A stretch of 47,815 nucleotides of DNA from contig CANHVK010000010.1 of the NCBI GenBank assembly GCA_947464135.1, positions 1-47,815 on the forward strand. The letters are read 5' to 3'. The notes beneath the pieces are model-generated. The model made no database searches. It had not been told where the DNA came from and saw only the letters and a list, made by a program, of their open reading frames with translations. The stretch is from Flavobacteriia bacterium. GTDB taxonomy: Bacteria; Bacteroidota; Bacteroidia; Flavobacteriales_D; Crocinitomicaceae. Shown one piece after another: positions 10,264 to 38,843 of the stretch. The translations under genes were made by a program, and so were the position numbers. Every line of letters starts with the position of its first letter. Position 1 is the first letter of the stretch.

Positions 10264-11559
10264 ATGAATTTAATGTCCAACTACCAAACAATCATCATTA
10301 CACTTGTAATAATCTGCTTATTGTCATATAATTGGGGTGGAATTTCTGTTTATTCTAAAAAAGCCACGAAAATTCTATTTTGCTCCAAAATCTTAATTAG
10401 CTTTTCCATTTTTTATTACTTTTCGACATATCTGAATCTTGATAAAAAAAATGATTTATATGTTTATTATAATCAGGCACTCAAATTATATGATACATTA
10501 AACGGAAATGCAAAGTCAGTCTTTTCAATATTAATAGGAAATACTCAAGAATATAAATCAATATTAAATCAACTGACATCTTGGAAAAGGGATTTTGATT
10601 ATGGTATCCCAAATGACAATCAAACAATGATTCGAATTCATTTGAGTTTGATTTTGATATTTGGTAAATCAATTTTAAATCATCTATTGTTATTTCATTT
10701 AGTATCCTTTACAGCAATATTGTTACTAATCAAATTCCTTGTTAAACAATCAAATATTCGAAATGAACTCTTATTAATTTTATTCATCTTACCATCCATT
10801 ACAATTTGGTCTAATACTACATTTAAAGAAAGTATAGCACTTAGCATTCATACACTTATGATTTTTACTCTATTGAAAATCAATCAAAATTGGAGTTTAA
10901 AATATTTAATCACACTTGTTGTAGTATGCTTAATCCACATTGTAATCAAGCCCATTTATTTAATTGCCATTTTACCCTATTTTCTAAGTTTTTTAATCTA
11001 TAAAAGAACAAAAATTAAATATTGGTTAAATAGAATCATCATCGTTGTAATTATTGTCACATCCGTAATTATTTCTTTATCGTTTAACCACTCGGATATT
11101 GAAAAAGATGAATATAAATATGGTAATAAATTCAACTTATTCAAAATGATAGAATACAAACAAGACGACTTTTTTTATGAAGCGTATTTGAGAAAAGCCG
11201 AAACATTATTAAAATTAACACCACTAAAAATTGAAAATTTATCATTTTTGACAACACTTAAAGAGTCGATACTAAACGTATTTTTTACTCCATCCTTTTT
11301 CTTTCCTTCAAAATTAATTGGTATCCCTTTTTTAATAGAAAATATTATTTTGTATCTATTAATTTTCATAGGTATCAAAAATAGAAAGTTTCAAAATATT
11401 GAGCCTATCGATAAATTAATCTTCCTATCAGGGATTACGATTTGTATTTTTGCAGGAATAATCACACCTGTATTGGGAATCGTGTTAAAATTTAAATCAA
11501 TAGGTTACCTTTATCTACTTATTGGTTTATTAAAAATTAACTTTCAAAAGGAAAAATGA
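10264..11559 (+). CDS. Multi-spanning membrane protein, paralogue 1 of 3
   Basis: 431 residues with about ten hydrophobic segments, an inner-membrane protein of unknown function. It aligns by eye with the next two genes: a first outer loop with NDLYVYYN, then the NDNQTMIR motif (about residues 117-124), a membrane segment ending IWSNTTFKES (about 179-188), a basic loop, an extracytoplasmic loop after about residue 270, and a last membrane pair beginning ITPVLGIVL. It is the most divergent copy: paralogues 2 and 3 carry VRYR after the TPVLG/VPVLG motif, while this one has LKFK, and the FINxxFRP loop motif reads FFTPSFFFPS. The general shape (many helices, acidic first loop, conserved Arg/Lys) resembles GT-C glycosyltransferases or polysaccharide polymerases, but I cannot assign it. 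An in-frame ATG at 10273 is an alternative start. Its stop overlaps the next start as ATGA. Confidence 0.8.
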   Translation: MNLMSNYQTIIITLVIICLLSYNWGGISVYSKKATKILFCSKILISFSIFYYFSTYLNLDKKNDLYVYYNQALKLYDTLNGNAKSVFSILIGNTQEYKSILNQLTSWKRDFDYGIPNDNQTMIRIHLSLILIFGKSILNHLLLFHLVSFTAILLLIKFLVKQSNIRNELLLILFILPSITIWSNTTFKESIALSIHTLMIFTLLKINQNWSLKYLITLVVVCLIHIVIKPIYLIAILPYFLSFLIYKRTKIKYWLNRIIIVVIIVTSVIISLSFNHSDIEKDEYKYGNKFNLFKMIEYKQDDFFYEAYLRKAETLLKLTPLKIENLSFLTTLKESILNVFFTPSFFFPSKLIGIPFLIENIILYLLIFIGIKNRKFQNIEPIDKLIFLSGITICIFAGIITPVLGIVLKFKSIGYLYLLIGLLKINFQKEK

Positions 11560-12941
11560 ACTATTTAATCTTGTTTTCTTTATTTCTATTATTTGGATTT
11601 TACCTTTTGAAGCTTGATACAAATTCATTAAAAAAATCAAATCTAATAATAGCCTTAATCATAAAATTTTTTGCTACAATTTCTGTTTGGTTTATTTATA
11701 CTTACTATTTCTCAAATACATCATTAAATGACATTTATAAATATTTCAATGATGGTAAGATATTAAACGAATCATTTATTAAATCGCCAATTGAAACGCT
11801 ACAATTTATATTTGAAGGGAAAAACAATTATAACATAAGAAACATTACTGATCAATTAATTTATTGGACAAAACCAAATCAATATGGTTTATTAAATGAC
11901 AATCAAACCATTATATTATTAAACTTTTTACTTTGTTTTATTTCAGATAATAATATTCTAATTCAAAGTCTTATTATTTCGAGCATTGCTTTTTATGCAA
12001 CATTCTCATTGTATAAAACTTTAAACTCTTGTTTTTCTATTCCACATAGAATCTTATTTTTTTTAATGTTTTTTAATCCATCCTATTTGATTTGGACATC
12101 TGGAAATTTCAAAGAAACTTTTATTTATATCGGTTTAATGTTTTTGTTTTCGAACTTAATTAAGTTACTTAATGACAAGAAATCAATCAAAATAAACATC
12201 TTCGTCTTTTTGAACCTGATTTTTATCTTATTCTGCAAAAATTACTTTTTTATATTTTTATTACCAGGAATCATTGCTTTTTATTCAATACTATATTTTT
12301 GGAAAAATAATAAGACTTATGCAGTTTCAATTTCTTATTTTTCATTTTTGATATTAATAATTTTTGCAGGACTTTTTTATAATCCAGTGAATTTTGATAA
12401 CACTATTAAAGACCATCAAAAACGAAAATTGTATATTAAAAAAGTGAATAGCGATTCTTATGAAAAAAATGCATTAGGTGAAAACCGAAATATATTCGAA
12501 GTGTTACGTTTCAAACAACGAGACCAACAATTTGAAGCCAAAACTCAACACGCACACACAGTAGTTTACGCTCCAACCCTAGATGGAAATCCTGTTACTT
12601 TTTTCAAATGTATACCATTTGCATTCATCAATACATTGTTTAGACCGAACGTAATAGATTTTAGAAAACCTCTTTTTATTCCTGATATAATGACCAATTT
12701 TATTATATGGTTACTATTATTTTTTTCATTTAAATACAAAAAACCAACTATTTTGAAAGACGAAAAAATAGTTCAATCTATATTACTTTACTTTACACTT
12801 ATTTCACTTGTTATCATTGGAATTTTAGTTCCTGTTTTAGGAAATATTGTAAGGTATAGAGCACCTATTTTACCTCTCTTAATTATTTCATTATTATTAA
12901 ACATAGACTTTAAAAAAATTCCGTTGTTTAATAAATTGTAA
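11556..12941 (+). CDS. Multi-spanning membrane protein, paralogue 2 of 3
   Basis: 461 residues, about ten to eleven membrane segments. Motifs shared with its neighbours: NDIYKYFNDGKIL in the first outer loop (about residues 58-70), YWTKP and then LNDNQTIILLN, LIWTSGNFKET at about 180-190, the loop FKQRDQQFEAKTQHAHT, AFINTLFRP near 365, and LVPVLGNIVRYRAPILP near the C-terminus. These spaced polar motifs inside an otherwise hydrophobic protein suggest an active or binding site facing the periplasm rather than a plain structural role; that is inference. The start ATG overlaps the stop of the upstream gene (ATGA), so translation is likely coupled. Function unknown. Possible relations are GT-C-type glycosyltransferases or EpsG/Wzy-like polymerases. 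Confidence 0.8.
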   Translation: MNYLILFSLFLLFGFYLLKLDTNSLKKSNLIIALIIKFFATISVWFIYTYYFSNTSLNDIYKYFNDGKILNESFIKSPIETLQFIFEGKNNYNIRNITDQLIYWTKPNQYGLLNDNQTIILLNFLLCFISDNNILIQSLIISSIAFYATFSLYKTLNSCFSIPHRILFFLMFFNPSYLIWTSGNFKETFIYIGLMFLFSNLIKLLNDKKSIKINIFVFLNLIFILFCKNYFFIFLLPGIIAFYSILYFWKNNKTYAVSISYFSFLILIIFAGLFYNPVNFDNTIKDHQKRKLYIKKVNSDSYEKNALGENRNIFEVLRFKQRDQQFEAKTQHAHTVVYAPTLDGNPVTFFKCIPFAFINTLFRPNVIDFRKPLFIPDIMTNFIIWLLLFFSFKYKKPTILKDEKIVQSILLYFTLISLVIIGILVPVLGNIVRYRAPILPLLIISLLLNIDFKKIPLFNKL

Positions 12942-12956
12942 TTTTGATACTAAAAA

Positions 12957-14279
12957 GTGGAATATATACTTTCTTTTCTTTACCTTTTTTTGATATTGAT
13001 TTTCATCAATAAGAGTAGATTTTTCACAAATACAAACCTAAAAAACACTACTTTATTTGGACTTTTTTTTATAAAATTAGTAGCGGCATATTGTTTGTTT
13101 TTAGTTTATTCAAAATATTATACAGATAGGTCAACTGCAGATATTTTTAAATATTTTGATGACTCAACATGGCTATATAAAAACGTGTTCTCTAAATCGC
13201 CTATTAATTACTTTAAAATTATTTTAGGGATACATACCGACCAACCATATATCCATTATGAACTAAAACAAACACAATATTGGTTCAAACCACATGAAAC
13301 AAATGTTTTTAATGATAACCGAACCGTAATCCGTTTTAATCTAATAATATACCTAATATCATTGGGATATTATCATATTCATACATTGATTCTTTGTTTT
13401 CTTGCATTTATAGGTCTTACAGGTATTTACAAAACATTCATCAAATTATTTCCTGAAAAAACTTTAATACTTATTCTAGCGATCTACTTTTTACCATCGG
13501 TTCTTTTTTGGGGTTCCGGTATTTTAAAAGAAAGTCTTTTATTGTTTTCCATTGGATTGTTTATATATGGTTTAGCAGAATTGACCCTGCATAAACAAAA
13601 ATCTCTATCAAATTTCATCATGATTACTATTTCATTTTTATTGCTTACAATAACAAAACCTTATGTTATTCTTACATTAGCGCCAAGTGTTTTAGCATTA
13701 ATAACGTATCCTAGATTCAAAAAAATTAACGCAATTTATTACTTTACACTAATTCATATTTTTAGTATAATCAGCGCATTGATTGTAAATTATTTAAATA
13801 CTAATCTTGATATATTAGGGAATATTGTCTACAAACAACATGATTTTTTAAATGTAGCAAGAGATACACATGCACAAAGCACAATTTATGTAGAGAAATT
13901 ATCAAATAACCTATATTCATTTATTCATTTTTCTCCATTAGCATTTATCAATGGGTTTTTTAGACCAACTATTTTTGAAATAAATTCCATAATTTATTTA
14001 TCTGCAGTGTTCGAATCAACCCTATTAATTTTAGGAGTAGTATTTTTTCTTTTTAAAAGAAATACAGATCTCAATGGTAATCAAAAAATGATCGTTTATT
14101 TTTCATTGTTTTTTTCTATTTTTCTTGCTATTCTGATTGGTTTAGCCACTCCAGTTTTAGGTGCAATTGTTAGATATCGAGTTCCTTATCTTCCTTTTTT
14201 ATATAGTGCTATTTTTATTTCTATTAGAATTCCAAATTCTTCAATTTTTAATAAAATAGAAACTAAACTTTGCAAATGA
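12957..14279 (+). CDS. Multi-spanning membrane protein, paralogue 3 of 3 (GTG start)
   Basis: 440 residues from a GTG at 12957. An in-frame TAA just upstream at 12951 rules out a longer start, and no ATG is near, so GTG is the best choice, 15 bases after the stop of paralogue 2. Conserved motifs: ADIFKYFDDSTWL in the first outer loop, YWFKPHETNVFNDNRTVIR, LFWGSGILKES, ITKPYV, the loop VYKQHDFLNVARDTHAQS, SPLAFINGFFRP and ATPVLGAIVRYRVPYLP. The Asp pair in the first loop and the RYR near the end are the strongest candidates for functional residues. It is the fullest version of the family among the three copies. The last codons overlap the next gene's ATG as ATGA. Function unknown; see paralogues 1 and 2. 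Confidence 0.8.
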   Translation: MEYILSFLYLFLILIFINKSRFFTNTNLKNTTLFGLFFIKLVAAYCLFLVYSKYYTDRSTADIFKYFDDSTWLYKNVFSKSPINYFKIILGIHTDQPYIHYELKQTQYWFKPHETNVFNDNRTVIRFNLIIYLISLGYYHIHTLILCFLAFIGLTGIYKTFIKLFPEKTLILILAIYFLPSVLFWGSGILKESLLLFSIGLFIYGLAELTLHKQKSLSNFIMITISFLLLTITKPYVILTLAPSVLALITYPRFKKINAIYYFTLIHIFSIISALIVNYLNTNLDILGNIVYKQHDFLNVARDTHAQSTIYVEKLSNNLYSFIHFSPLAFINGFFRPTIFEINSIIYLSAVFESTLLILGVVFFLFKRNTDLNGNQKMIVYFSLFFSIFLAILIGLATPVLGAIVRYRVPYLPFLYSAIFISIRIPNSSIFNKIETKLCK

Positions 14280-15559
14280 AACCTATCAGATTTATAATTT
14301 CACTGTTATTTTTAACAAGTTGTATTAAAGGAAAAAAAGTTGATTTTGTATTTCATAATACCATTGTAAACAGTTGCGATGAAAATAATCATACTTATGA
14401 AGCAATGTCTATAAAAGATGGTAAGATTATCGAACTCGGTCCTGAAAGACAAATATTAAATAAATATCGTTCAGAAGAAAGTGAAGATTTAGGTGGTAAA
14501 TATATTTATCCGACATTAATTGATGCGAATTTTAAACTTTTCGATATTCTAATTGAAAGGTTCTCTGTTCAAACAAGTCTTGCTGAAAATGAAAAGCATC
14601 TAATTTATTTGATAGAAAAAAAACTTGAAACAACTAAATCTCCGATTTTATCAATTAACTCCGTTAGATTTAGTAAAAAAAAGGTGATTGATTTAATCAT
14701 TCAAAATTTCCCTTCCAAAAGAATATATATTGTAAATAAAGACTCCCTATTTTACATTGACAATAAATCTATCAAAACGATAAACAACAATGAAAAAAGA
14801 ACTTTTAAAACCAATTTATTAAAGACTAATTTCATAGAATTTAAAGCATTATTTCTTGAAATTCAAAATGAATTAATTGAACATGGATTTAACGATATCA
14901 TCATTCATAATTGCAGTAAAGAAGAATTTGATTTTTTAACCAAATTAGAAAAAAACATCAACATTGAAATGTATTTGTATACGAATTACATTGAAAAACA
15001 TTTGGCCAAAAAACATATTTACGTAAATGGTTTTTACTTAGATGAATTTAATCATTTGGATTCAGAAAAGATTTCAAAAATGAATAAACCAATTAGCTTT
15101 ACAAGCTCTTTTTTTCAAGCAAACTCAAATCAACTATATAAATTCATTAGTTCAATAAACCAAGACCATCGATGGGTATGTATTATAAATTCAAAGCTTT
15201 CAAATGTAGAATCAGAGAAGTTAAATCAATTAAATATTTATCCCGTTGTTAATTCAACATCTAGCGAATTAGAAAAAACCAACTTTTTAAGCAGTTTTGG
15301 CTCAGGGAATACAAATCCATTTGAAATGGAACTCGAAATTATTAAGGATAATAAAATAGCTAAAAATCAAAAAAACAAATTACTTTTTTCAAATGGTCAT
15401 AAACTTACATTTAATGAAAATCGCATGGGAAGCCTTGAAAAAAAGAAAAATACAAATTTCATCACGTTTAAATTCCATTACGACAAAATAAATTCAACAG
15501 ATAAATTATACATTGATAGAATGTATATTAAAAATAAACTAATGTATCAGGTCGATTAA
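14276..15559 (+). CDS. Lipoprotein resembling a YtcJ-type amidohydrolase with all metal motifs lost
   Basis: 427 residues from the ATG at 14276 (a TTG two codons upstream is rejected). A lipobox LTSC places the lipidated Cys at residue 16. Residues 22-85 follow the start of amidohydrolase family 3 closely: VDFVFHNTIVNSCDENN, EAMSIKDGKIIELG, then DLGGKYIYPTLIDA. Where the family has the metal-binding HxH after 'GlIDaH', this protein has DANFK (83-87). Further on, IINSK (about 303-307) stands where the family has IEHAQ, NSTSS where it has QPTH, and FGSGNT (about 341-346) where it has FGSDFP. The HAIGD region is absent, and the total is about 100 residues shorter than usual. The catalytic centre is therefore gone, but the frame is intact. 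It is translationally coupled to paralogue 3. Probably a membrane-anchored binding or structural protein rather than an enzyme. Confidence 0.75.
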   Translation: MKPIRFIISLLFLTSCIKGKKVDFVFHNTIVNSCDENNHTYEAMSIKDGKIIELGPERQILNKYRSEESEDLGGKYIYPTLIDANFKLFDILIERFSVQTSLAENEKHLIYLIEKKLETTKSPILSINSVRFSKKKVIDLIIQNFPSKRIYIVNKDSLFYIDNKSIKTINNNEKRTFKTNLLKTNFIEFKALFLEIQNELIEHGFNDIIIHNCSKEEFDFLTKLEKNINIEMYLYTNYIEKHLAKKHIYVNGFYLDEFNHLDSEKISKMNKPISFTSSFFQANSNQLYKFISSINQDHRWVCIINSKLSNVESEKLNQLNIYPVVNSTSSELEKTNFLSSFGSGNTNPFEMELEIIKDNKIAKNQKNKLLFSNGHKLTFNENRMGSLEKKKNTNFITFKFHYDKINSTDKLYIDRMYIKNKLMYQVD

Positions 15560-15613: not shown

Positions 15614-17365
15614 ATGAGATTATTTGACATACCCTTTCATCAATTACACCATTTCCCTAATGAAAAAATGTTTACAACTAAAACAGATGGTGTATGGAAA
15701 TCTATTTCAACACAAGAATTTTTGGATTTAGTTGAAAAGACATCATTAGGCTTAATAGAACTTGGTATCAATGAAGGAGATAAAATTGGAATTATTTCTT
15801 CAAATAGGTATGAATGGAATGTTTTAGATATCGCTACTTTACAAATTGGAGCTATTGTAGTTCCAATTTATCCGAATATCTCAAAAGATGACTACACCTA
15901 TATTTTAAATGATTCAGAAATTAAATTATGTGTTGTAGGAGATCAAGATTTATATGAAAAAATTTCTGAAATAAGAACTAAAACACCTCGTTTAAACTTA
16001 TTATATACGTTCAATAAGTATAATGAAATTCCACATTGGACAGAAATACATAATGTTGGCAAAATTGAACATCAATCAATTATAGAAGAAAGAAAATCTA
16101 AAATTGATAAATTTGATTTAGCTACAATAATTTATACATCTGGAACAACTGGAAATCCGAAAGGAGTAATGCTTTCACATAATAATATTGTTTCAAATGC
16201 ATTAGCCTGTGTGGATAGAATGCCGTGTAACGAGCATTCAAGGGTATTAACGTTTTTGCCTGTATGTCACGTATATGAAAGAATGTTACATTACCTATAC
16301 ATGTATATGGGGTGTGCCATTTATTTTGCTGAATCATTAGATACAATCGGTGATAACATTAGAGAAGTAAAGCCACATATGTTTACTGCTGTTCCAAGAT
16401 TGATAGAAAAAGTATACGATAAAATCATTCAAAAAGGAGAAGAGTTAACGGGTATTAAGAAAAAATTATTTTTTTGGGCAGTATCTGTTGCAGAACAATA
16501 TGAAGTAGGAAAATCTGACTTTTGGTATACTTTCAAGTTAAAAATTGCAAGAAAACTAATTTTCTCAAAATGGAAAGAAGCTTTAGGTGGTGAAGTTAAA
16601 GCAATTGCTTCAGGTAGTGCCGCGCTTCAACCTAGATTGGCTAGAATTTTTTTAGCTGCTGATATTACTGTTTTAGAAGGATATGGTTTAACGGAAACAT
16701 CACCCGTTATTTCTGTTAATTGTTTAAAAAATGGAATTAAAATTGGTAGCGTAGGCACATTGATTCCTGATGTTGAAGTGAAAATTGCAGAAGATGGTGA
16801 GATTTTAGTAAAAGGACCAAATGTTATGATGGGTTATTACAAACAACCTGAAAAAACAGCTGAAGCAATCGTTGATGGTTGGTTCCACACTGGAGATATC
16901 GGAACTTTTGTTGATGGAAAATTTCTAAAGATAACGGACAGAAAAAAGGAAATATTTAAGACTTCCGGTGGTAAATACATCATTCCCCAAGCGATGGAAA
17001 ATAAATTTAAAGAATCTAGATTTATTGAACAAATGATGGTGGTTGGCGAAGGTCAGAAATTCCCTGGTGCGTTAATTGTTCCTAGTTTTATCCATTTAAA
17101 GGATTGGTTAAATAAAAAAGGAGTGAATGCAAAAGAACTTTCAAATTTTGAAATAATAAATTTAAATTTAGTTAAAGAAAAACTTGAAAAAGAAGTGAAT
17201 CATTACAATCAATTTTATGGTGGATATGAACAAATCAAGAGATTTGAATTACTCGAAAATGAATTCACCATTGAAGGTAATGAGCTTACCCCTACATTAA
17301 AGCTTAAAAGAAAGATTATTCTTGAAAAATATGCTTTATTTATTGAGCGTATATACAATGTTTAA
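15614..17365 (+). CDS. Long-chain acyl-CoA synthetase (AMP-forming)
   Basis: 583 residues, ATG start after a 54-base gap. It activates fatty acids to acyl-CoA through an acyl-adenylate. The AMP-binding signature IIYTSGTTGNPKGVMLSHNN begins near residue 172, and GYGLTETSP is at about 356. The GWFHTGDIG motif and the hinge/Lys region ITDRKKEIFKTSGGKYIIP are present. The length and the N-terminal 'Ws.it..ef...v...a.GL...Gi..GDkigi' segment fit the FadD/LC-FACS group common in Bacteroidota, sometimes named FadD15-like. The protein is cytosolic or membrane-associated. It is followed by rsmG after three bases, so the two are probably co-transcribed although functionally unrelated. Chain-length preference cannot be read from the sequence. 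Confidence 0.93.
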   Translation: MRLFDIPFHQLHHFPNEKMFTTKTDGVWKSISTQEFLDLVEKTSLGLIELGINEGDKIGIISSNRYEWNVLDIATLQIGAIVVPIYPNISKDDYTYILNDSEIKLCVVGDQDLYEKISEIRTKTPRLNLLYTFNKYNEIPHWTEIHNVGKIEHQSIIEERKSKIDKFDLATIIYTSGTTGNPKGVMLSHNNIVSNALACVDRMPCNEHSRVLTFLPVCHVYERMLHYLYMYMGCAIYFAESLDTIGDNIREVKPHMFTAVPRLIEKVYDKIIQKGEELTGIKKKLFFWAVSVAEQYEVGKSDFWYTFKLKIARKLIFSKWKEALGGEVKAIASGSAALQPRLARIFLAADITVLEGYGLTETSPVISVNCLKNGIKIGSVGTLIPDVEVKIAEDGEILVKGPNVMMGYYKQPEKTAEAIVDGWFHTGDIGTFVDGKFLKITDRKKEIFKTSGGKYIIPQAMENKFKESRFIEQMMVVGEGQKFPGALIVPSFIHLKDWLNKKGVNAKELSNFEIINLNLVKEKLEKEVNHYNQFYGGYEQIKRFELLENEFTIEGNELTPTLKLKRKIILEKYALFIERIYNV

Positions 17366-17368
17366 AAT

Positions 17369-18007
17369 ATGAACGATAATATAGACCTTATTTTAAAATA
17401 CTTTCCAAATTTAAAGGAAGAACAAATAGAAAAATTTAAAAAACTATTTCCTATATACGAAAGTTGGAACGAGCAAATAAATGTAATTTCAAGAAAGGAC
17501 TTAGATTCTTTTAACGAAAGGCATTTGTTACACTCTCTTGGTATTGCTAAAGTAATTGATTTTGTTCCTCAAACTAAAATATTAGATATTGGAACAGGTG
17601 GTGGTTTTCCAGGTATACCATTAGCGATATTTTTCCCTGAAGTACATTTTACGCTAGTAGATTCAATTGGAAAAAAAATAAAAGTAGTAAATGAAGTTGC
17701 AAAAGCATTAGATCTTGACAATGTTGTGGGAATTCACGAAAGAGCAGAAAAGATAAAAGAAAAATATGATTTTGTAGTTAGTAGAGCAGTAACAGCTATG
17801 CCACAATTTTTACCTTGGGTAAATGGAAAGTTTTTAAAAGAAAATAAAAATAGTCTTAAAAATGGAATACTTTATTTAAAGGGGGGAGATTTAGCTGAAG
17901 AAATGAAACCTGTTAAACAGCCTATTAAATATTATGAATTGCAAAGATACTTTGAAGAAGACTTTTTTGAAACCAAAAAAGTGGTCTATCTAAAAATGAA
18001 TAATTAA
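17369..18007 (+). CDS. rsmG: 16S rRNA (guanine-527-N7)-methyltransferase
   Basis: 212 residues, normal for RsmG (GidB). It methylates N7 of G527 in 16S rRNA in the 530 loop using SAM. The N-terminal segment YESWNEQINVISRKDLDSF with HLLHSLGIAK is diagnostic. The Rossmann SAM-binding motif is ILDIGTGGGFPGIPLAIFFP at about residues 70-89, followed by FTLVDSIGKK and the VVSRAV motif. The C-terminus ends in the usual beta strands with LKGGDL. It sits three bases after the acyl-CoA synthetase and overlaps the convergent hypothetical gene by four bases at the stop codons, so there is no room for a conventional terminator. Confidence 0.96.
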   Translation: MNDNIDLILKYFPNLKEEQIEKFKKLFPIYESWNEQINVISRKDLDSFNERHLLHSLGIAKVIDFVPQTKILDIGTGGGFPGIPLAIFFPEVHFTLVDSIGKKIKVVNEVAKALDLDNVVGIHERAEKIKEKYDFVVSRAVTAMPQFLPWVNGKFLKENKNSLKNGILYLKGGDLAEEMKPVKQPIKYYELQRYFEEDFFETKKVVYLKMNN

Positions 18008-32255: not shown

Positions 32256-35200
32256 ATGAGGTATTTTTTTCTTTTTTTAATTATTTTCTTTAATCATATA
32301 TCTTTTTCTCAAATAGGAGATTGTAATAATGGAGGAGCTAAAATTGGTGGGCCATTTACTCATCAGGTTGATCTTATTTCTAAAATGGTTGATGTGGCTA
32401 CTAAAAAACTTACTACGGTCGGCCAAGAAGATTTTGGATCTGGAATAACAAATACTTCAAAAGATTTATATTACAAAATTTCTGGAGGTACCAAAGGGGC
32501 TATTTCTTTTATGTTGTATTCAGCATCTTTACCTGATAATTGTTTAACATACAAAGCTGAATTATATGATGTTGGAAATTGTACTGCTGTAGTTGCTACA
32601 AGTGACATTGGAATTTATCATTCAAACAATGCTAAAAATTTTGTTTTTAATAATATTTCGAATAAAGATTATATTTTGAAATTAACTCTGACTGTTTCTT
32701 CAGCTTGTAATTTACAAAGTATTAATTTAGGGTATTTTCCTATTAATCCTCCAGTTTCTTGCATCGCCTGTGCTAATTCATGCAGTGAGACATTATCTTA
32801 CACTTCTCAAAATTCAGATTTAACCACAGCTTTTAATGATTTAGAAACTAAAATATCCAGCAATATTGGAAGTTTTTACAATATTCCTATCAAAAAAGGT
32901 GAAACTAAAACAACATGCGTTAATGTAAAAATACCTCAAAACACAAAAACGATTGGTTTTAGACAAAATTTTACCAGTTTAGATGGAAACTCTTGTGGGA
33001 CTCCAAAATTCACTTATAAATTGTATGATAAAAATTGTTCTAATACTACTTTAACACCAGCTAGAACAAATGCTAATAATTTTGGAAGTGGTTTTAATCC
33101 TGAATATGATAACCCTCCTGCAGGAGAATATAGAATGTGTTTAACCATAGAAAATAATACTGCAAGTTGTGAAGTTGTTGGTTTAAACTATATTGGTATT
33201 TATATGGAAGCTCCAACAGCATGTAATGCATCGGTTGGCACCCTAGAAACCACAAAGTTGACAGGGTCAAATAATGAATATACAGTAAAAGCTGGCGATA
33301 CATGGTCTCTATCTCATAAAGACTTTATTTTACCTCCAGCAGGAAATGGAGGTAGTTTTATGGGGTATTTAGTTTATACTTGCAAACCACCTACAACTAT
33401 AGATGTAGAAAATCCTTCTAATGGTGTTCCAGCTGGTTGTTTTAAGGGTGTATCTCATACAGCAACTGATCAAAATGTAGCAGGTGTATCAAAAGTATTT
33501 GCAGGTATTACAGAAATATGGGTTGTACCAGTAACACTTGATACAGATGAAAGTTTAGCTGATGATGATGGTGATGGTGTTGCAGATAAAAAAGATAGAA
33601 TAGATGAAAATAAAGATGGGTGTTATGCAATTGCAGATGCGATACATATAATTTATGCCCCAGCACTTCCTTGTGGAACTTGTGCAACTCCTGATTGTCC
33701 AATAGGAAGAATACCAAGATATTTGGATCGTTTTCCAGCTGGTCCAGGATGTATACCAAGCGTAAATACTAATTGTCCAGGCCAAGGAGCCCAAGATTGT
33801 ACATCGGGAATTCTTATTAAAGGCCCTGAAACCTCTTATCATACAGTAACTGCAGATGCTTTTGGTAATCTTGGAGCTTTTGTCCAGTTAGTAAGCTCAT
33901 TAAATTCACAACCTTTTACAATCAGTTCAGAATTATACGAAATGAATGATTGTAATGGAACCCCCAAGGTTAAAGGGAAATTTAGTACAGATGGACTTGC
34001 TACGGGTTCGTCTTCTAATGTTCATAATAGAGGGACTGGTAATGGTAGTTGGAATCCAGAATGGAAGGGATTAGTTCCAGGTAAAAGTTATATTCTTAAA
34101 ACCATATTTACTCCTGGATCAGGAGATGAAATTACAGGTTACTGTATGGATTATTATGGATCAACATCTTGTGCAGCTAAAATAGGATCAACAGCAGTTA
34201 AAATAAATGGTTCTACTCCTGCTAGCTCAAAAAACCCATCTACAGATTATTATTTATTGTGTAAAAATGATGTAATAGAGTTTAATACTACTGGTTATAC
34301 TTTACCTCCTAAGGGTGCAGGTGGACAGTCAGGTATTGGATATACGCCATATACTTGTGTTCCAACTTCAGGAACTGAACCCAAAAATGATGCCTGCTGG
34401 GGTAACGTATATGATATAAATAATCCATCAACTGATATCAATGATGGTTCTATTATTGCTCAATTACCATCAGCTTCTAATCAAACATATTATTTTGTTC
34501 CTGTTACTATGGATGAAGCATTGTCTAATTCAATGGATTATGATCAAAATGGTGATAAATGTTATCAAATGGGCACACCTATTAAAGTAACTTATCTAAA
34601 TGATATAACTTTTACCAATATAGATGATTGTACCAACTCTAGAGTTGAAATAACTTTAAATGGTGGTAAGCCAGAATTTGTTTCAGGTTCAAGTTATACT
34701 ATAACTAATAATACTACTAAAGGTATTTTAAGTGCGTCAACATTGAGTACATCCGGAGGTAAAATATATTTAACTGGATTAACAAAAAATGATGCGTATG
34801 ATTTAACTGTTGATGATGGAACAGGTTGTACAAAAAGAATTACAGGTACATATAATTGTACTTCTTGTACTCCTCCTATAGTTACTGGTCTAACTACCAT
34901 CTGTCAAGGTACAACTGTTGAGTGGACAAGTACAGCACCTTTAACTTCAAGTGATAATACTAACTATTTTGCTACTATTACACCTAGTGGAACAGTGAAT
35001 AAATATAATGTAACTGCTTCAAATCCTACAACTACGCCGACAAGTTTGAAGTTTACGGCAACATTAGCTGGTTGTTCGGTAGAAAAAGAAATAACGATTA
35101 TTAAAAAACCAGATATCACAGGTATAAAATCTTTTTGTGAAGAAGGGAATACTACTTTGGCTTGTTTAAACCCACCAGCTACTGCTACCGCAGCGTGGTC

Positions 35201-38200
35201 CTTAACTACTGCATCTTCCATTGCTACAGTTGACAATACTGGAAAAGTTACTGGTTTAGCAGGTCAAAGTGGAAATGTTGATATAACATATACAGATGAC
35301 AAGGGATGTACTAATAGTGTTACAGTTACTGTCAATCCAAATCTTGTACCTACTATTACTTGTGGAACATCAACTGCAACTTCAGTAACATTTACTTGGG
35401 GTTCGGTATCTGGTGCAACAAGTTATGATTTGGTTTACAATAAAGATAATACAGGTAATCAAACAGTTAGTGGACATACAACTACTTCATATCCAGTTTC
35501 AAGTGTTCCTTCTGGTAAATCTGTGACATTAATTGTAACACCAAAAGGTACAGGTTGTTTTAAAGCTTCAGCTGTTAAATCATGTACTGCTGATAATTGC
35601 CCTTCACCAACTATTACTAAGGATCCAGACAATGTAGCAAAGTGTGCTGGTGCGAATACGAGTTTTTCTGTTACTGCTACATCAACAGCTACGTTAACAT
35701 ATCAATGGCAAATAAATAATGGTGCTAATCCGCCTACAAACCTTACAAATACAGGAGTTTACACGGGAACAACTGATCCAACATTAGTTATTAGTAATGT
35801 AACTGGATTAGACGGTGTAAAATATCAATGTCTAGTAACAGAGACATCTTCTGGAACAGGTTGTAATAAAACATCTTTACCAGCAACTTTAACAGTAAAT
35901 CCTATCCCAGCGTTTACTCCTACTGTTAGTGATATTTGCGAAGGAAGTGATCCATCTATTGCTTATACTGGTTTAACAGGTAATCCAGACAGAATCGTTT
36001 TTGATCCAGGTCTACCTTTAATCACTCCTTTTAATTTATCAATATCACCATCACCAATAACGGTAACTGGTCTACCAATCAAATTACCAGTAAATACCTA
36101 CAGTGGTGTTAAGGTTAGAGTTGAAAATACAACAACTGGTTGTAAATCTGCTGATATAACCATAACACCCTTTAAAGTTCAAGCTACACAAAAACCATCT
36201 ATAAGTTCGAAAAGTACTACTGTAAATTCTGTCACTTTTCAATGGTCTAATTTGACAGGGTTGAATACTCAAACCGGTGGTGAAGATAAATTTACAGTTA
36301 AGGAATTTATATGTAGTGGATGTGCAACAGCTGGTACATATGTGAATGCAACAGGTAATCTAACATACAATGCAACTTCATCAAAATGGGAATATGAAAA
36401 AACTGGTCTTTCTTCAGGTGACAAAGTATATATTGAAGTTACACCTTTTGATAATACACCTTTAGCAACACCAAGCTGTTATGGAACATCTTCCTTTGAA
36501 CTACTTGCGATACCTTGTGTTTCTCCAATTATAACACAAGATATAATTGATGTTTCTTTATGTGAAGGAACAACAACAACACCGGTGTCTTCATCGTTTG
36601 AACTAAAGTACAATACAGCAGCTTCAACTTCTCCAGCTACCTGGGAAATGTTAAGTCCTGGTGGTTCTTGGACAACATTGAATGCTTCGGGAGTATATTC
36701 AATTACTGGTTCGGATAATGTTGATACTAAACTTACAATAAGTGATATAAAAGGGTTAGATGGTACAAAATATAGAGTAAACTTAAAAACTGCTACAACA
36801 TCGGGTTCTTGTAATACTATTTCACATGAGTCTATATTGACAGTTAAACCTTTACCTTTAATGAATTCAATTTCTGATAAGTCTTTTTGTCCTGGAACAT
36901 TAGTAAATGATCCTTCAAAACCACTAGATTTTGAATTCAAAGTATCTCAAGCTGGAACTCCAACATTTACCTGGAATAGTGATGTACAAACTACTGGTGT
37001 ATCAACAGGAGGGACAGATGTAACTTCTTTTGCTTCTTTTACTACTTTAAGTCCTTTAAACGACGAAGTTTCTAAAATAACAGTTACACCTAAATTAAAT
37101 TTGTGTGTTGGTCAACCAATCACTTTTAATATTACTGTTAAACCAACTGTTAAACCTGTTTTTACAAATTCAGTAATTGATTTCAAAAGTGTTCAGTTTA
37201 ATTGGGCATCTTCATCAGTAGCTCCAGACTTTTGGGTCATTGATACTTTGATAACAAGCTCAACAGCTGCAACACCTTCGTTAACTAATTATAAATCTGG
37301 AGGGCAACAATTAGGGACTGTTAATACATATTCAATTGGTGGAATTAATTCTACTAAAAAAGCTTATATTTCTATAACACCAAAACAAGATCCTTCAAAA
37401 ACCACATTGTTTTGTCCTGTTGTTGATGGCTTAAATGAGATACCAACACCTTGTGTAAAACCAACAAAACCTGCAAATCCTACAGTCAATCCATTGTGTG
37501 AAGGTGCAGCATTAACTGTAAATGGTGTCCTTCCTGATGCAACAGCAAATTTTCAATGGAAAATAAGTAGTGATGCTGGAATAACTTGGAATAACGTTTC
37601 ATTTTCAGATTTTGGTAATACTGGTACAACTAATATTTTATCTACGCAGTTAACAAAAGCTTATATGAATAATGCCTTGGTTAAAGTTGTATTAACAGAT
37701 AAAATTACAGGGTTGTGTACTGAAGAATCTAATACAGCTACTATCATTATAAATGAATTACCAAATGTAAAATTAATACAACCTACAAGTACAAGTTTGT
37801 GCGTGGATGATAATGATGTTTCTGCTTTTGTACAACTTGTATCAGGTAAATCACCATTAAAAATTGATTATACATTGAATGGAGTTCAATCAAAAGATCA
37901 GGATATTGCTAATTTAGAAATAAAATTTACCACAAAAAATGAGATGAATTATTCATTAACATTAGATAAAGTTACAGATGCAAATGGTTGTATATTTCCT
38001 TTAACAGGATTATCATCACAAGTTTCGATTCATAAGAATCCTTCTCCCAAATTTGTAGTCTCTGATACGATTGGTTGTTATCCTTTATTAATAAATTTCA
38101 CTGATATTTCAGGAGAGAAATATAAAGAGGTAACTTGGGATTTTGGTACAGGAATAAATTCTAGCAAAGAATTGGGAACCACACAATTTACTTATCCAAA

Positions 38201-38843
38201 AGAAGGAGATTATACTGTAACTTATTCAGTTTTAAATGAATTTGGTTGTTCAGGACAAATTATTAAACCTGATCAAATTCACGTTAAAAGTACACCAAAA
38301 GCTGCAATTACTACTGATAGAAATATTTTGAGTGTATATGAAAACGTCGTGAAATTTGATAGCAAGTTATCTAAAAATGTATCGTTTTATCTTTGGGATT
38401 TTGGAGATAATTCTCCAATTTCAAATGATCCAGTAGTAGAACATAAATATGATCCATCTGTACCAGGAAAATTTAAAATAAGTTTAATTGTAAGTAACTC
38501 TTCTACAAATATGACATGTAGTGATACAGCAGTTACATGGATTGATTTTCCTGAAGAAGTAGTGTTTTTTATACCTAACACATTTACACCAAATGGTGAT
38601 GAGTTTAATAACACTTTTCAACCAATTTTCACTTCTGGTTATGATCCCCAAAATTATTCATTCATAATCTTTGATAGATGGGGCCAAGTTGTTTTTGAAT
38701 CTAATAATCCACAAGTTGGCTGGGATGGTACACATGGTGATAAAATATTAGGAAATGATACATTTGTTTGGAAATTAGGTTTTAAAGAAAAATCATCCGA
38801 TAACGAACATCGCAGTACAGGACATGTTAATCTTGTAAAATAA
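32256..38843 (+). CDS. Giant multidomain T9SS cargo protein (adhesin-like)
   Basis: 2195 residues. Signal peptide MRYFFLFLIIFFNHISFSQ. Residues about 20-785 contain three copies of a Cys-rich beta-sandwich (endings INLGYFP, LNYIGIYME, YCMDYYGS), two copies of a module running from LPPxGxGG to VPVT and then a Cys, and a calcium-loop stretch DDDGDGVADKKDRIDENKDG near 435-455. Residues about 785-1925 are Ig-like/FN3-like modules, including a BIG2-like unit (VDNTGKVTGLAGQSGNVDIT) and several short CEG motifs marking module starts. Two PKD domains follow (about 1928-2010 with VTWDFGTG, and 2012-2100 with FYLWDFGDNS). The last ~92 residues are the type B CTD: FIPNTFTPNGDEFNN, FIIFDRWGQVVFES, GWDGTHG. 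Expected to be exported by T9SS with a PorP/SprF partner and displayed or released; adhesion is inferred from architecture. Confidence 0.9.
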   Translation: MRYFFLFLIIFFNHISFSQIGDCNNGGAKIGGPFTHQVDLISKMVDVATKKLTTVGQEDFGSGITNTSKDLYYKISGGTKGAISFMLYSASLPDNCLTYKAELYDVGNCTAVVATSDIGIYHSNNAKNFVFNNISNKDYILKLTLTVSSACNLQSINLGYFPINPPVSCIACANSCSETLSYTSQNSDLTTAFNDLETKISSNIGSFYNIPIKKGETKTTCVNVKIPQNTKTIGFRQNFTSLDGNSCGTPKFTYKLYDKNCSNTTLTPARTNANNFGSGFNPEYDNPPAGEYRMCLTIENNTASCEVVGLNYIGIYMEAPTACNASVGTLETTKLTGSNNEYTVKAGDTWSLSHKDFILPPAGNGGSFMGYLVYTCKPPTTIDVENPSNGVPAGCFKGVSHTATDQNVAGVSKVFAGITEIWVVPVTLDTDESLADDDGDGVADKKDRIDENKDGCYAIADAIHIIYAPALPCGTCATPDCPIGRIPRYLDRFPAGPGCIPSVNTNCPGQGAQDCTSGILIKGPETSYHTVTADAFGNLGAFVQLVSSLNSQPFTISSELYEMNDCNGTPKVKGKFSTDGLATGSSSNVHNRGTGNGSWNPEWKGLVPGKSYILKTIFTPGSGDEITGYCMDYYGSTSCAAKIGSTAVKINGSTPASSKNPSTDYYLLCKNDVIEFNTTGYTLPPKGAGGQSGIGYTPYTCVPTSGTEPKNDACWGNVYDINNPSTDINDGSIIAQLPSASNQTYYFVPVTMDEALSNSMDYDQNGDKCYQMGTPIKVTYLNDITFTNIDDCTNSRVEITLNGGKPEFVSGSSYTITNNTTKGILSASTLSTSGGKIYLTGLTKNDAYDLTVDDGTGCTKRITGTYNCTSCTPPIVTGLTTICQGTTVEWTSTAPLTSSDNTNYFATITPSGTVNKYNVTASNPTTTPTSLKFTATLAGCSVEKEITIIKKPDITGIKSFCEEGNTTLACLNPPATATAAWSLTTASSIATVDNTGKVTGLAGQSGNVDITYTDDKGCTNSVTVTVNPNLVPTITCGTSTATSVTFTWGSVSGATSYDLVYNKDNTGNQTVSGHTTTSYPVSSVPSGKSVTLIVTPKGTGCFKASAVKSCTADNCPSPTITKDPDNVAKCAGANTSFSVTATSTATLTYQWQINNGANPPTNLTNTGVYTGTTDPTLVISNVTGLDGVKYQCLVTETSSGTGCNKTSLPATLTVNPIPAFTPTVSDICEGSDPSIAYTGLTGNPDRIVFDPGLPLITPFNLSISPSPITVTGLPIKLPVNTYSGVKVRVENTTTGCKSADITITPFKVQATQKPSISSKSTTVNSVTFQWSNLTGLNTQTGGEDKFTVKEFICSGCATAGTYVNATGNLTYNATSSKWEYEKTGLSSGDKVYIEVTPFDNTPLATPSCYGTSSFELLAIPCVSPIITQDIIDVSLCEGTTTTPVSSSFELKYNTAASTSPATWEMLSPGGSWTTLNASGVYSITGSDNVDTKLTISDIKGLDGTKYRVNLKTATTSGSCNTISHESILTVKPLPLMNSISDKSFCPGTLVNDPSKPLDFEFKVSQAGTPTFTWNSDVQTTGVSTGGTDVTSFASFTTLSPLNDEVSKITVTPKLNLCVGQPITFNITVKPTVKPVFTNSVIDFKSVQFNWASSSVAPDFWVIDTLITSSTAATPSLTNYKSGGQQLGTVNTYSIGGINSTKKAYISITPKQDPSKTTLFCPVVDGLNEIPTPCVKPTKPANPTVNPLCEGAALTVNGVLPDATANFQWKISSDAGITWNNVSFSDFGNTGTTNILSTQLTKAYMNNALVKVVLTDKITGLCTEESNTATIIINELPNVKLIQPTSTSLCVDDNDVSAFVQLVSGKSPLKIDYTLNGVQSKDQDIANLEIKFTTKNEMNYSLTLDKVTDANGCIFPLTGLSSQVSIHKNPSPKFVVSDTIGCYPLLINFTDISGEKYKEVTWDFGTGINSSKELGTTQFTYPKEGDYTVTYSVLNEFGCSGQIIKPDQIHVKSTPKAAITTDRNILSVYENVVKFDSKLSKNVSFYLWDFGDNSPISNDPVVEHKYDPSVPGKFKISLIVSNSSTNMTCSDTAVTWIDFPEEVVFFIPNTFTPNGDEFNNTFQPIFTSGYDPQNYSFIIFDRWGQVVFESNNPQVGWDGTHGDKILGNDTFVWKLGFKEKSSDNEHRSTGHVNLVK

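Follow-up and report, generated by a model that had tools for sequence, protein, structure and literature searches.

A lipid-anchored YtcJ-type amidohydrolase relative without a metal site is maintained by purifying selection

The open reading frame at 14276–15559 (+) of the window, by which we mean the whole 47,815-nt stretch of DNA analysed, encodes a protein referred to here as the 427-aa lipoprotein. It is a YtcJ-type amidohydrolase (PF07969) by descent along its whole chain, it carries none of the six metal ligands of these enzymes, and its gene is under purifying selection. We consider it probable that this pseudoenzyme has been retained for a non-catalytic task of its anchored β-sandwich, the trimmed barrel being mainly a support. 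The initial annotation, made from the sequence alone, was correct in substance: its coordinates, the 427-codon open frame and the lipobox Cys16 were all confirmed, and its reading of the protein as a pseudoenzyme was supported. The features are listed in Table 1.

Table 1. Coordinates of the lipoprotein gene, its parts, its neighbours and a barrel-less relative (window positions unless a locus is named)
Feature	Position	Strand	Evidence or remark
Upstream membrane-protein-like gene, no Pfam match at E ≤ 1	12957..14279	+	
Pseudoenzyme lipoprotein CDS, 427 aa, degenerate YtcJ/Amidohydro_3 orthologue	14276..15559	+	sequence, profile alignment, model
Signal peptide, residues 1–15, up to lipobox LTS|C16	14276..14320	+	sequence, aligned Cys
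N block, Cys16 to β1 end (residues 16–87), kept; first half of composite β-sandwich	14321..14536	+	alignment
GPERQILNKY motif, residues 55–64	14438..14467	+	alignment
HxH site at β1, lost (N85-F86-K87)	14528..14536	+	alignment
Trimmed (β/α)8 barrel, residues 88–384	14537..15427	+	model, alignment
β4 Lys position, lost (Y254)	15035..15037	+	alignment; column approximate, adjoins deletion
DHRW, residues 297–300, ahead of β6 in the model	15164..15175	+	invariant in 13/13 genus members
EHAQ His at β6, lost (I304)	15185..15187	+	alignment
GTDFP Asp at β8, lost (G344)	15305..15307	+	alignment
C-terminal sandwich half (C block), residues 385–427	15428..15556	+	alignment
AMP-binding (FadD-like) gene	15614..17365	+	downstream in 13/13 genus members
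rsmG/gidB	17369..18007	+	next downstream in 13/13 genus members
168-aa form of G034	L155 955..1485 = L168 3955..4485		overlaps SDR stop

Homology and fold

When searched alone, the 427-aa lipoprotein matched nothing in Pfam at E ≤ 1, hit the TRZ/ATZ hydrolases weakly in NCBIfam (4.7e-4) and gave nothing significant with phmmer against the PDB (best E 0.27), so the alignment to the amidohydrolases put forward in the initial annotation needed proof. An hhalign comparison between a profile of the 13 members from the genus of the 427-aa lipoprotein and one of 10 intact relatives gave a probability of 100 and an E of 8.5e-62 over 426 columns, end to end. Five of the 13 genus members also matched PF07969 directly in a Pfam scan at E ≤ 0.01 (best 3.8e-5), and one of the 13 had in addition a chance-level match to a viral helicase (0.0074). 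For comparison, an intact relative matched Amidohydro_3 at 8.4e-73; among solved structures, 3igh and 3icj matched the intact profile best.

The AlphaFold2 model of the mature protein had a pLDDT of 91.4 and a pTM of 0.90, and Foldseek ranked 3igh first against it (E 5.7e-18, TMq 0.70); as 25 of the 37 rows in the underlying alignment were intact-type enzymes, this model is pulled towards the intact-enzyme fold. Modelling of the short form L094 from degenerate sequences alone gave a poor model (pLDDT 60), the best PDB matches of which were mostly amidohydrolases. Eight strand segments were found in order by alignment and model, although the model gives the eighth a length of just two residues. 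The amidohydrolase outline proposed initially is thus borne out by both the profile match and the structural match to the barrel of 3igh.

Loss of the metal site

Six ligand positions were followed: the two His of β1, the Lys of β4, the His of β5, the His of β6 and the Asp of β8, with column placement approximate beside the deletions (β4, β5 and β8). The 427-aa lipoprotein retained 0/6 of these ligands (HxH, Lys, His, His, Asp). Every metal motif had been said to be replaced, and the alignment showed the replacements to be real (HxH by N-F-K, EHAQ by IINS, QPTH by NSTS and GTDFP by G-S-G). The HAIGD strand, described as missing, has no His. The loss of the lysine strand (KVxGDG) had been overlooked. 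Across the genus, the six sites were kept in 0, 3, 0, 0, 0 and 0 of the 13 members respectively, each member having 0 or 1 of 6.

All six ligands were present in 24/24 other complete rows of the family, a contrast with the genus that goes beyond chance. These rows are a sample: outside the genus, 173 family genomes had a match, and 28 of them were read. Two of the 28, G080 and G068, run off the end of their contigs and do not enter the tree, the ligand and loop counts or the identity medians; two more are the degenerate G091/G069 pair described below. A motif count over 80 loci, reduced to 70 by leaving out 10 that were incomplete, found all six patterns in 56 of the 70 and none in the 10 genus loci. 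Among the 70, L078 had the HxH pattern only, and three loci missed the β4 pattern only; inspection showed the Lys to be kept in two of these, the third being L111. In BwBSH1, a YtcJ-family enzyme, alanine at each of the six predicted ligands abolished activity according to the available part of a preprint (PMC13081902). From its sequence we infer that the 427-aa lipoprotein has lost hydrolysis by the amidohydrolase mechanism.

Shortening of the catalytic face

The initial annotation held that length had been retained. This was wrong, as the catalytic-face loops have been lost and the framework kept. Protein length was 343–445 aa within the genus compared with mostly 538–559 aa in the 24 other complete family copies (frames outside the genus were mostly 540–600 aa among the matches listed). 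The 427-aa lipoprotein is shorter than the intact copies by about 115 aa, chiefly at β1–β2, β3–β4, β4–β5, β7–β8 and after β8. The β1–β2 segment had a median of 151 residues (range 138–167) in intact copies, 121 in the 427-aa lipoprotein and 25–31 in eight genus members. For β4–β5 the lengths were 50–52 in intact copies (median 52) and 23–26 in the genus, with 23 in the 427-aa lipoprotein; for β7–β8 they were 40–42 (median 41) and 15–19, with 18 in the 427-aa lipoprotein. The part after β8 had a median of 59 residues in intact copies against 31–44 in the genus, and β3–β4 had 21 in the 427-aa lipoprotein against 30. The lengths of β2–β3, β5–β6 and β6–β7 were hardly altered. Neither the long β1–β2 segment nor the normal-length active-site loops of a YtcJ enzyme are found in the 427-aa lipoprotein.

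Conservation of the N-terminal block

The predicted signal peptide and lipobox cysteine mark the 427-aa lipoprotein as a putative bacterial lipoprotein, and the cysteine was aligned in 13/13 genus members and in 24/24 other complete family rows. From this cysteine the protein reads C-I-K-G-K-K-V-D, without the acidic residues soon after Cys that typify LES. The LES motifs of Bacteroidetes surface lipoproteins, K-(D/E)2, SDDDD and SDDFE, were defined in other genera, as the available portion of PMC5080379 describes; with that limit, the lack of such a motif in the sequence hints that the protein may face the periplasm.

The distance from the lipobox cysteine to the second His position of β1 was 71 residues in 39/39 rows. 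In the N block, median identity was 57% between dead and active proteins and 64% between active proteins; the corresponding values were 17% and 54% in the barrel and 37% and 48% in the C block (21 of the 24 intact rows were used, three near-copies being dropped). The C block of the 427-aa lipoprotein itself was only 26% identical to active relatives, and median barrel identity inside the genus was 23%. Within the N block lies GPERQILNKY, 39–48 residues past the cysteine, each position of which was held in 12–13 of the 13 genus members and in 19–24 of the 24 other rows. We know of no catalytic role for this motif. Synonymous divergence of the N block was saturated in 4/7 pairs and 0.35–1.6 in the other three, so the constraint acts on the protein and not on the bases. 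The barrel columns invariant in 13/13 genus members were G204, G252, K271, D297–W300 and N320, all of which, with strands placed as in the model, lie before or inside strands and none at the catalytic-face end of a strand.

Selection and frame integrity

Orthologues interrupted by frameshifts were looked for and none was found; all 13 genus orthologues were free of internal stops. Nei-Gojobori dN/dS was 0.126–0.191 in 8/8 genus pairs, several dS values being above 1 and rough, and Fisher tests on 5/5 genus pairs gave p values of 9.8e-22 to 3.6e-41. This is purifying selection, as the initial annotation had expected of a pseudoenzyme that is not decaying. For comparison, a nearby PorP/SprF gene had a dN/dS of 0.12–0.28, fadD one of 0.05–0.11, below that of the lipoprotein, and the intact copies 0.05–0.11 in 4/6 pairs, with the other pairs saturated. 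Within the lipoprotein gene, the middle (barrel) region gave 0.16–0.23 in 6/7 pairs, the seventh being saturated, and the C block 0.13–0.37 by pair. Between close relatives the barrel is thus under constraint as well and cannot be regarded as mere ballast. The 427-aa lipoprotein thus combines descent from a catalytic ancestor, lost catalytic residues and maintenance by selection, as pseudoenzymes do; a non-catalytic function, their further mark, is putative here.

Repeated losses in related bacteria

In a tree of 39 rows the genus formed one clade (support 100/100); the tree program warned of long branches within it, so the branching inside the genus is unsure. Two genomes of another genus, G091 and G069, formed a second degenerate pair (100/100), nested among intact congeners (99/91, 99/95). 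This second pseudoenzyme lineage, at L037 (2946–4424) and L038 (4588–6078), has kept HxH and lost the other four ligands. Its loops are shortened at β4–β5 (28 and 27 residues) and at β7–β8 (29 and 29) and are near full length elsewhere, and dN/dS between the two members was 0.174. Its position in the sequence tree indicates that the pair lost its metal site separately from the genus of the 427-aa lipoprotein.

A further form was found in G034, a genome from another family of the order, at the orthologous locus. This 168-aa lipoprotein has no barrel and is built from an N and a C sandwich block, with GPERQIRNKY in the former and GTLEKGKKANF in the latter; from P79 to the Gly of GTLEKGK there are 49 residues, compared with 420 in the intact L042. 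Its C part matched Amidohydro_3 positions 411–468 in Pfam at E 4.5e-6, below the curated cut-off. Upstream are the same FGAM-synthase-like gene, membrane-protein gene and short-chain dehydrogenase-like (SDR) gene, and fadD is absent directly downstream. Among the best matches listed from 299 genomes of the order, which were ordered best first so that a barrel-less form would rank high, it was seen in G034 only. The G034 assembly has 260 contigs, is 93% complete and is the sole genome of its family sampled. Judging by its family code, its loss was presumably independent of the others. Other short frames were rejected as losses, those of G186, G095, G148, G249 and G303 being due to contig ends and that of G274 to a scaffold gap.

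Distribution and genomic neighbourhood

With the whole protein as the query, a match was found in 145/146 good-quality genomes of the family and in 186/200 overall; the N-terminal 73 residues matched in 93/100 sampled genomes of the order (91/97 good ones). Almost every genome sampled from the order therefore has the N block of the YtcJ-type lipoprotein, as a rule in a single copy. In the 13 genus genomes no further match to PF07969 of near full length was found, the longest covering about 187/472 positions, although this absence is weakened by the fact that 7/13 of these genomes are only 59–86% complete; nor was another found in G034, G091 or G069. A partnership with an active paralogue is accordingly unsupported in these genomes.

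The start codon of the lipoprotein overlaps the stop codon of the upstream gene (ATGA, 14276–14279). In 12 genus members the distance to the upstream frame was +2 to −59 bases, with start codons picked by us and the larger overlaps uncertain. A membrane-protein gene precedes the lipoprotein in all 12 genus members whose contig reaches it. In intact G045, G021 and G094 the membrane-protein gene is followed by a gene of about 255 aa, then by YtcJ and fadD. The gene of about 255 aa is an SDR gene, by a Pfam adh_short match for the copies of G005 and G034 and by eye for the others. It was missing in 11/12 readable cases in the genus and present in G005; a mere relocation is unsupported, the best matches in the genomes without it being ≤39% identical. 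Among loci flanked by 3 kb on each side, a membrane protein/SDR upstream or fadD downstream was found at 5/42 other loci compared with 9/9 genus loci. The arrangement is a minority in the wider set, and context says little about who the partner might be.

At 10264–14279 the window has a run of three membrane-protein-like genes that lack significant Pfam matches; one has a weak NCBIfam match to WsfD (glycan hexose transferase; 1.8e-5, below the cut-off). Some intact relatives have one membrane-protein-like gene and the SDR gene in place of this trio. Between G007 and G008, the homologues of 12957–14279 (L030/L031) had a dS of 0.32, compared with 0.97–1.87 in six other genes, a hint of recent recombination. 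The longest frame in the window is at 32256–38843 (2195 codons).

Interpretation and alternatives

The 427-aa lipoprotein is the positional descendant of a metal-dependent amidohydrolase lipoprotein of the YtcJ type. Probably no longer a hydrolase, it may serve for binding or docking at the membrane to which it is anchored, probably on the periplasmic side. Its working part would be the sandwich's anchored N-terminal half, which carries GPERQILNKY and is closed by the C-terminal half, with the trimmed barrel mainly as a support. The adjacent membrane proteins are partner candidates, by context only; we found no partner, ligand or phenotype for the 427-aa lipoprotein. Because conservation of the N block between dead and active proteins comes close to that between active ones, the active ancestor most likely already performed a non-catalytic task, which persisted after the enzyme was lost. 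This points to a retained sandwich task, already present in active ancestors, rather than a newly recruited one.

The most serious competitor, which we regard as unlikely, is a neofunctionalised barrel that binds a new ligand or performs metal-free catalysis, the sandwich being merely its anchor. The selection on the middle region in near pairs and the barrel fold still predicted for the 427-aa lipoprotein would fit this; against it, the model places no genus-invariant barrel column at the catalytic-face end of a strand, barrel identity is low even inside the genus, and one relative (G034) has dispensed with the barrel. It is less probable still that the N block is needed for the transport or folding of the lipoprotein and not for a partner. 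This would account for a block that starts at the lipobox, includes the charged CxKGKKVD stretch and is equally conserved in active enzymes, but GPERQILNKY lies beyond the few post-cysteine residues that the available text of PMC5080379 gives for Bacteroidetes export signals, and in our judgement folding alone would be unlikely to preserve these residues of the N block when barrel identity drops to 17%.

The remaining explanations are very improbable. A nucleotide-level element in the first 260 bases might be suspected because the N block sits at the gene's 5′ end, with fadD and rsmG downstream, yet its synonymous sites are saturated or diverged and it is the amino acids, not the bases, that are conserved. 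We count as refuted, with as little probability left to it, a decaying gene whose frame is open by chance: the barrel is highly divergent and deletions have recurred, but the open frames, the dN/dS values and the Fisher tests rule it out. Least credible of all, and also counted as refuted, is that the protein is not an amidohydrolase and that the likeness of its first 86 residues reflects a shuffled domain; the failure of the single sequence to find significant Pfam or PDB matches is outweighed by the full-length profile match, the eight strand segments in order and a gene neighbourhood common to some intact copies.

Beyond the retained sandwich task of the 427-aa lipoprotein, a broader reading can be put forward tentatively, and we would not yet favour it. 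Throughout the order, the lipid-anchored composite sandwich would be the core non-catalytic module and the TIM-barrel hydrolase a dispensable passenger, dropped at least three times and to varying extents: G091/G069 lost four ligands and two loops, the genus lost the ligands and more loops (lengths falling from 445 to 343 aa), and one genome, with its 168-aa form, lost the whole barrel. If this is true, the hydrolase annotation of this widespread gene misses its main role.

Comparison with known systems

No report of the YtcJ-type family as a pseudoenzyme was found in the open-access full-text literature, a scope outside which most subscription papers lie, and the available part of PMC12578637 has no mention of amidohydrolase, hydrolase, pseudoenzyme or catalytic. 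What is new here is the constant-length conserved anchor block, the second, separate loss and the 168-aa barrel-less form. Intact, site lost, loops lost and barrel lost make up a graded series at one locus in related bacteria, which allows a search for a non-catalytic function in proteins where enzyme activity would no longer hide it.

The 427-aa lipoprotein resembles the YtcJ-type amidohydrolases (3igh/3icj, BwBSH1) in fold, strand order, composite sandwich and C-terminal block, and differs from them in its 0/6 ligands, its shortened catalytic-face loops and its lack of a Pfam match at E ≤ 1. With the complete YtcJ lipoproteins of its own family (24 rows) it shares the lipobox, the N block, the C block and, in some genomes, the neighbours, whereas they have kept all six ligands and full loops. 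The G091/G069 lineage is like the genus in having lost ligands (four of six) and shortened β4–β5 and β7–β8, and unlike it in keeping HxH, in the near full length of its other loops and in its separate origin.

Dihydroorotase belongs to the amidohydrolase superfamily. The pseudo-dihydroorotase (pDHO) of the Pseudomonas aeruginosa ATCase is, in the available part of PMC7053772, an inactive homologue with a structural role that renders its partner enzyme active. Like pDHO, the 427-aa lipoprotein is an inactive homologue within this superfamily that would be kept for a non-catalytic role; unlike pDHO, it comes from another subfamily, is a lipoprotein, has shortened loops, has one relative without the barrel and has no partner found. 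It is the graded, repeated loss at one locus, together with the barrel-less form, that sets this system apart from pDHO.
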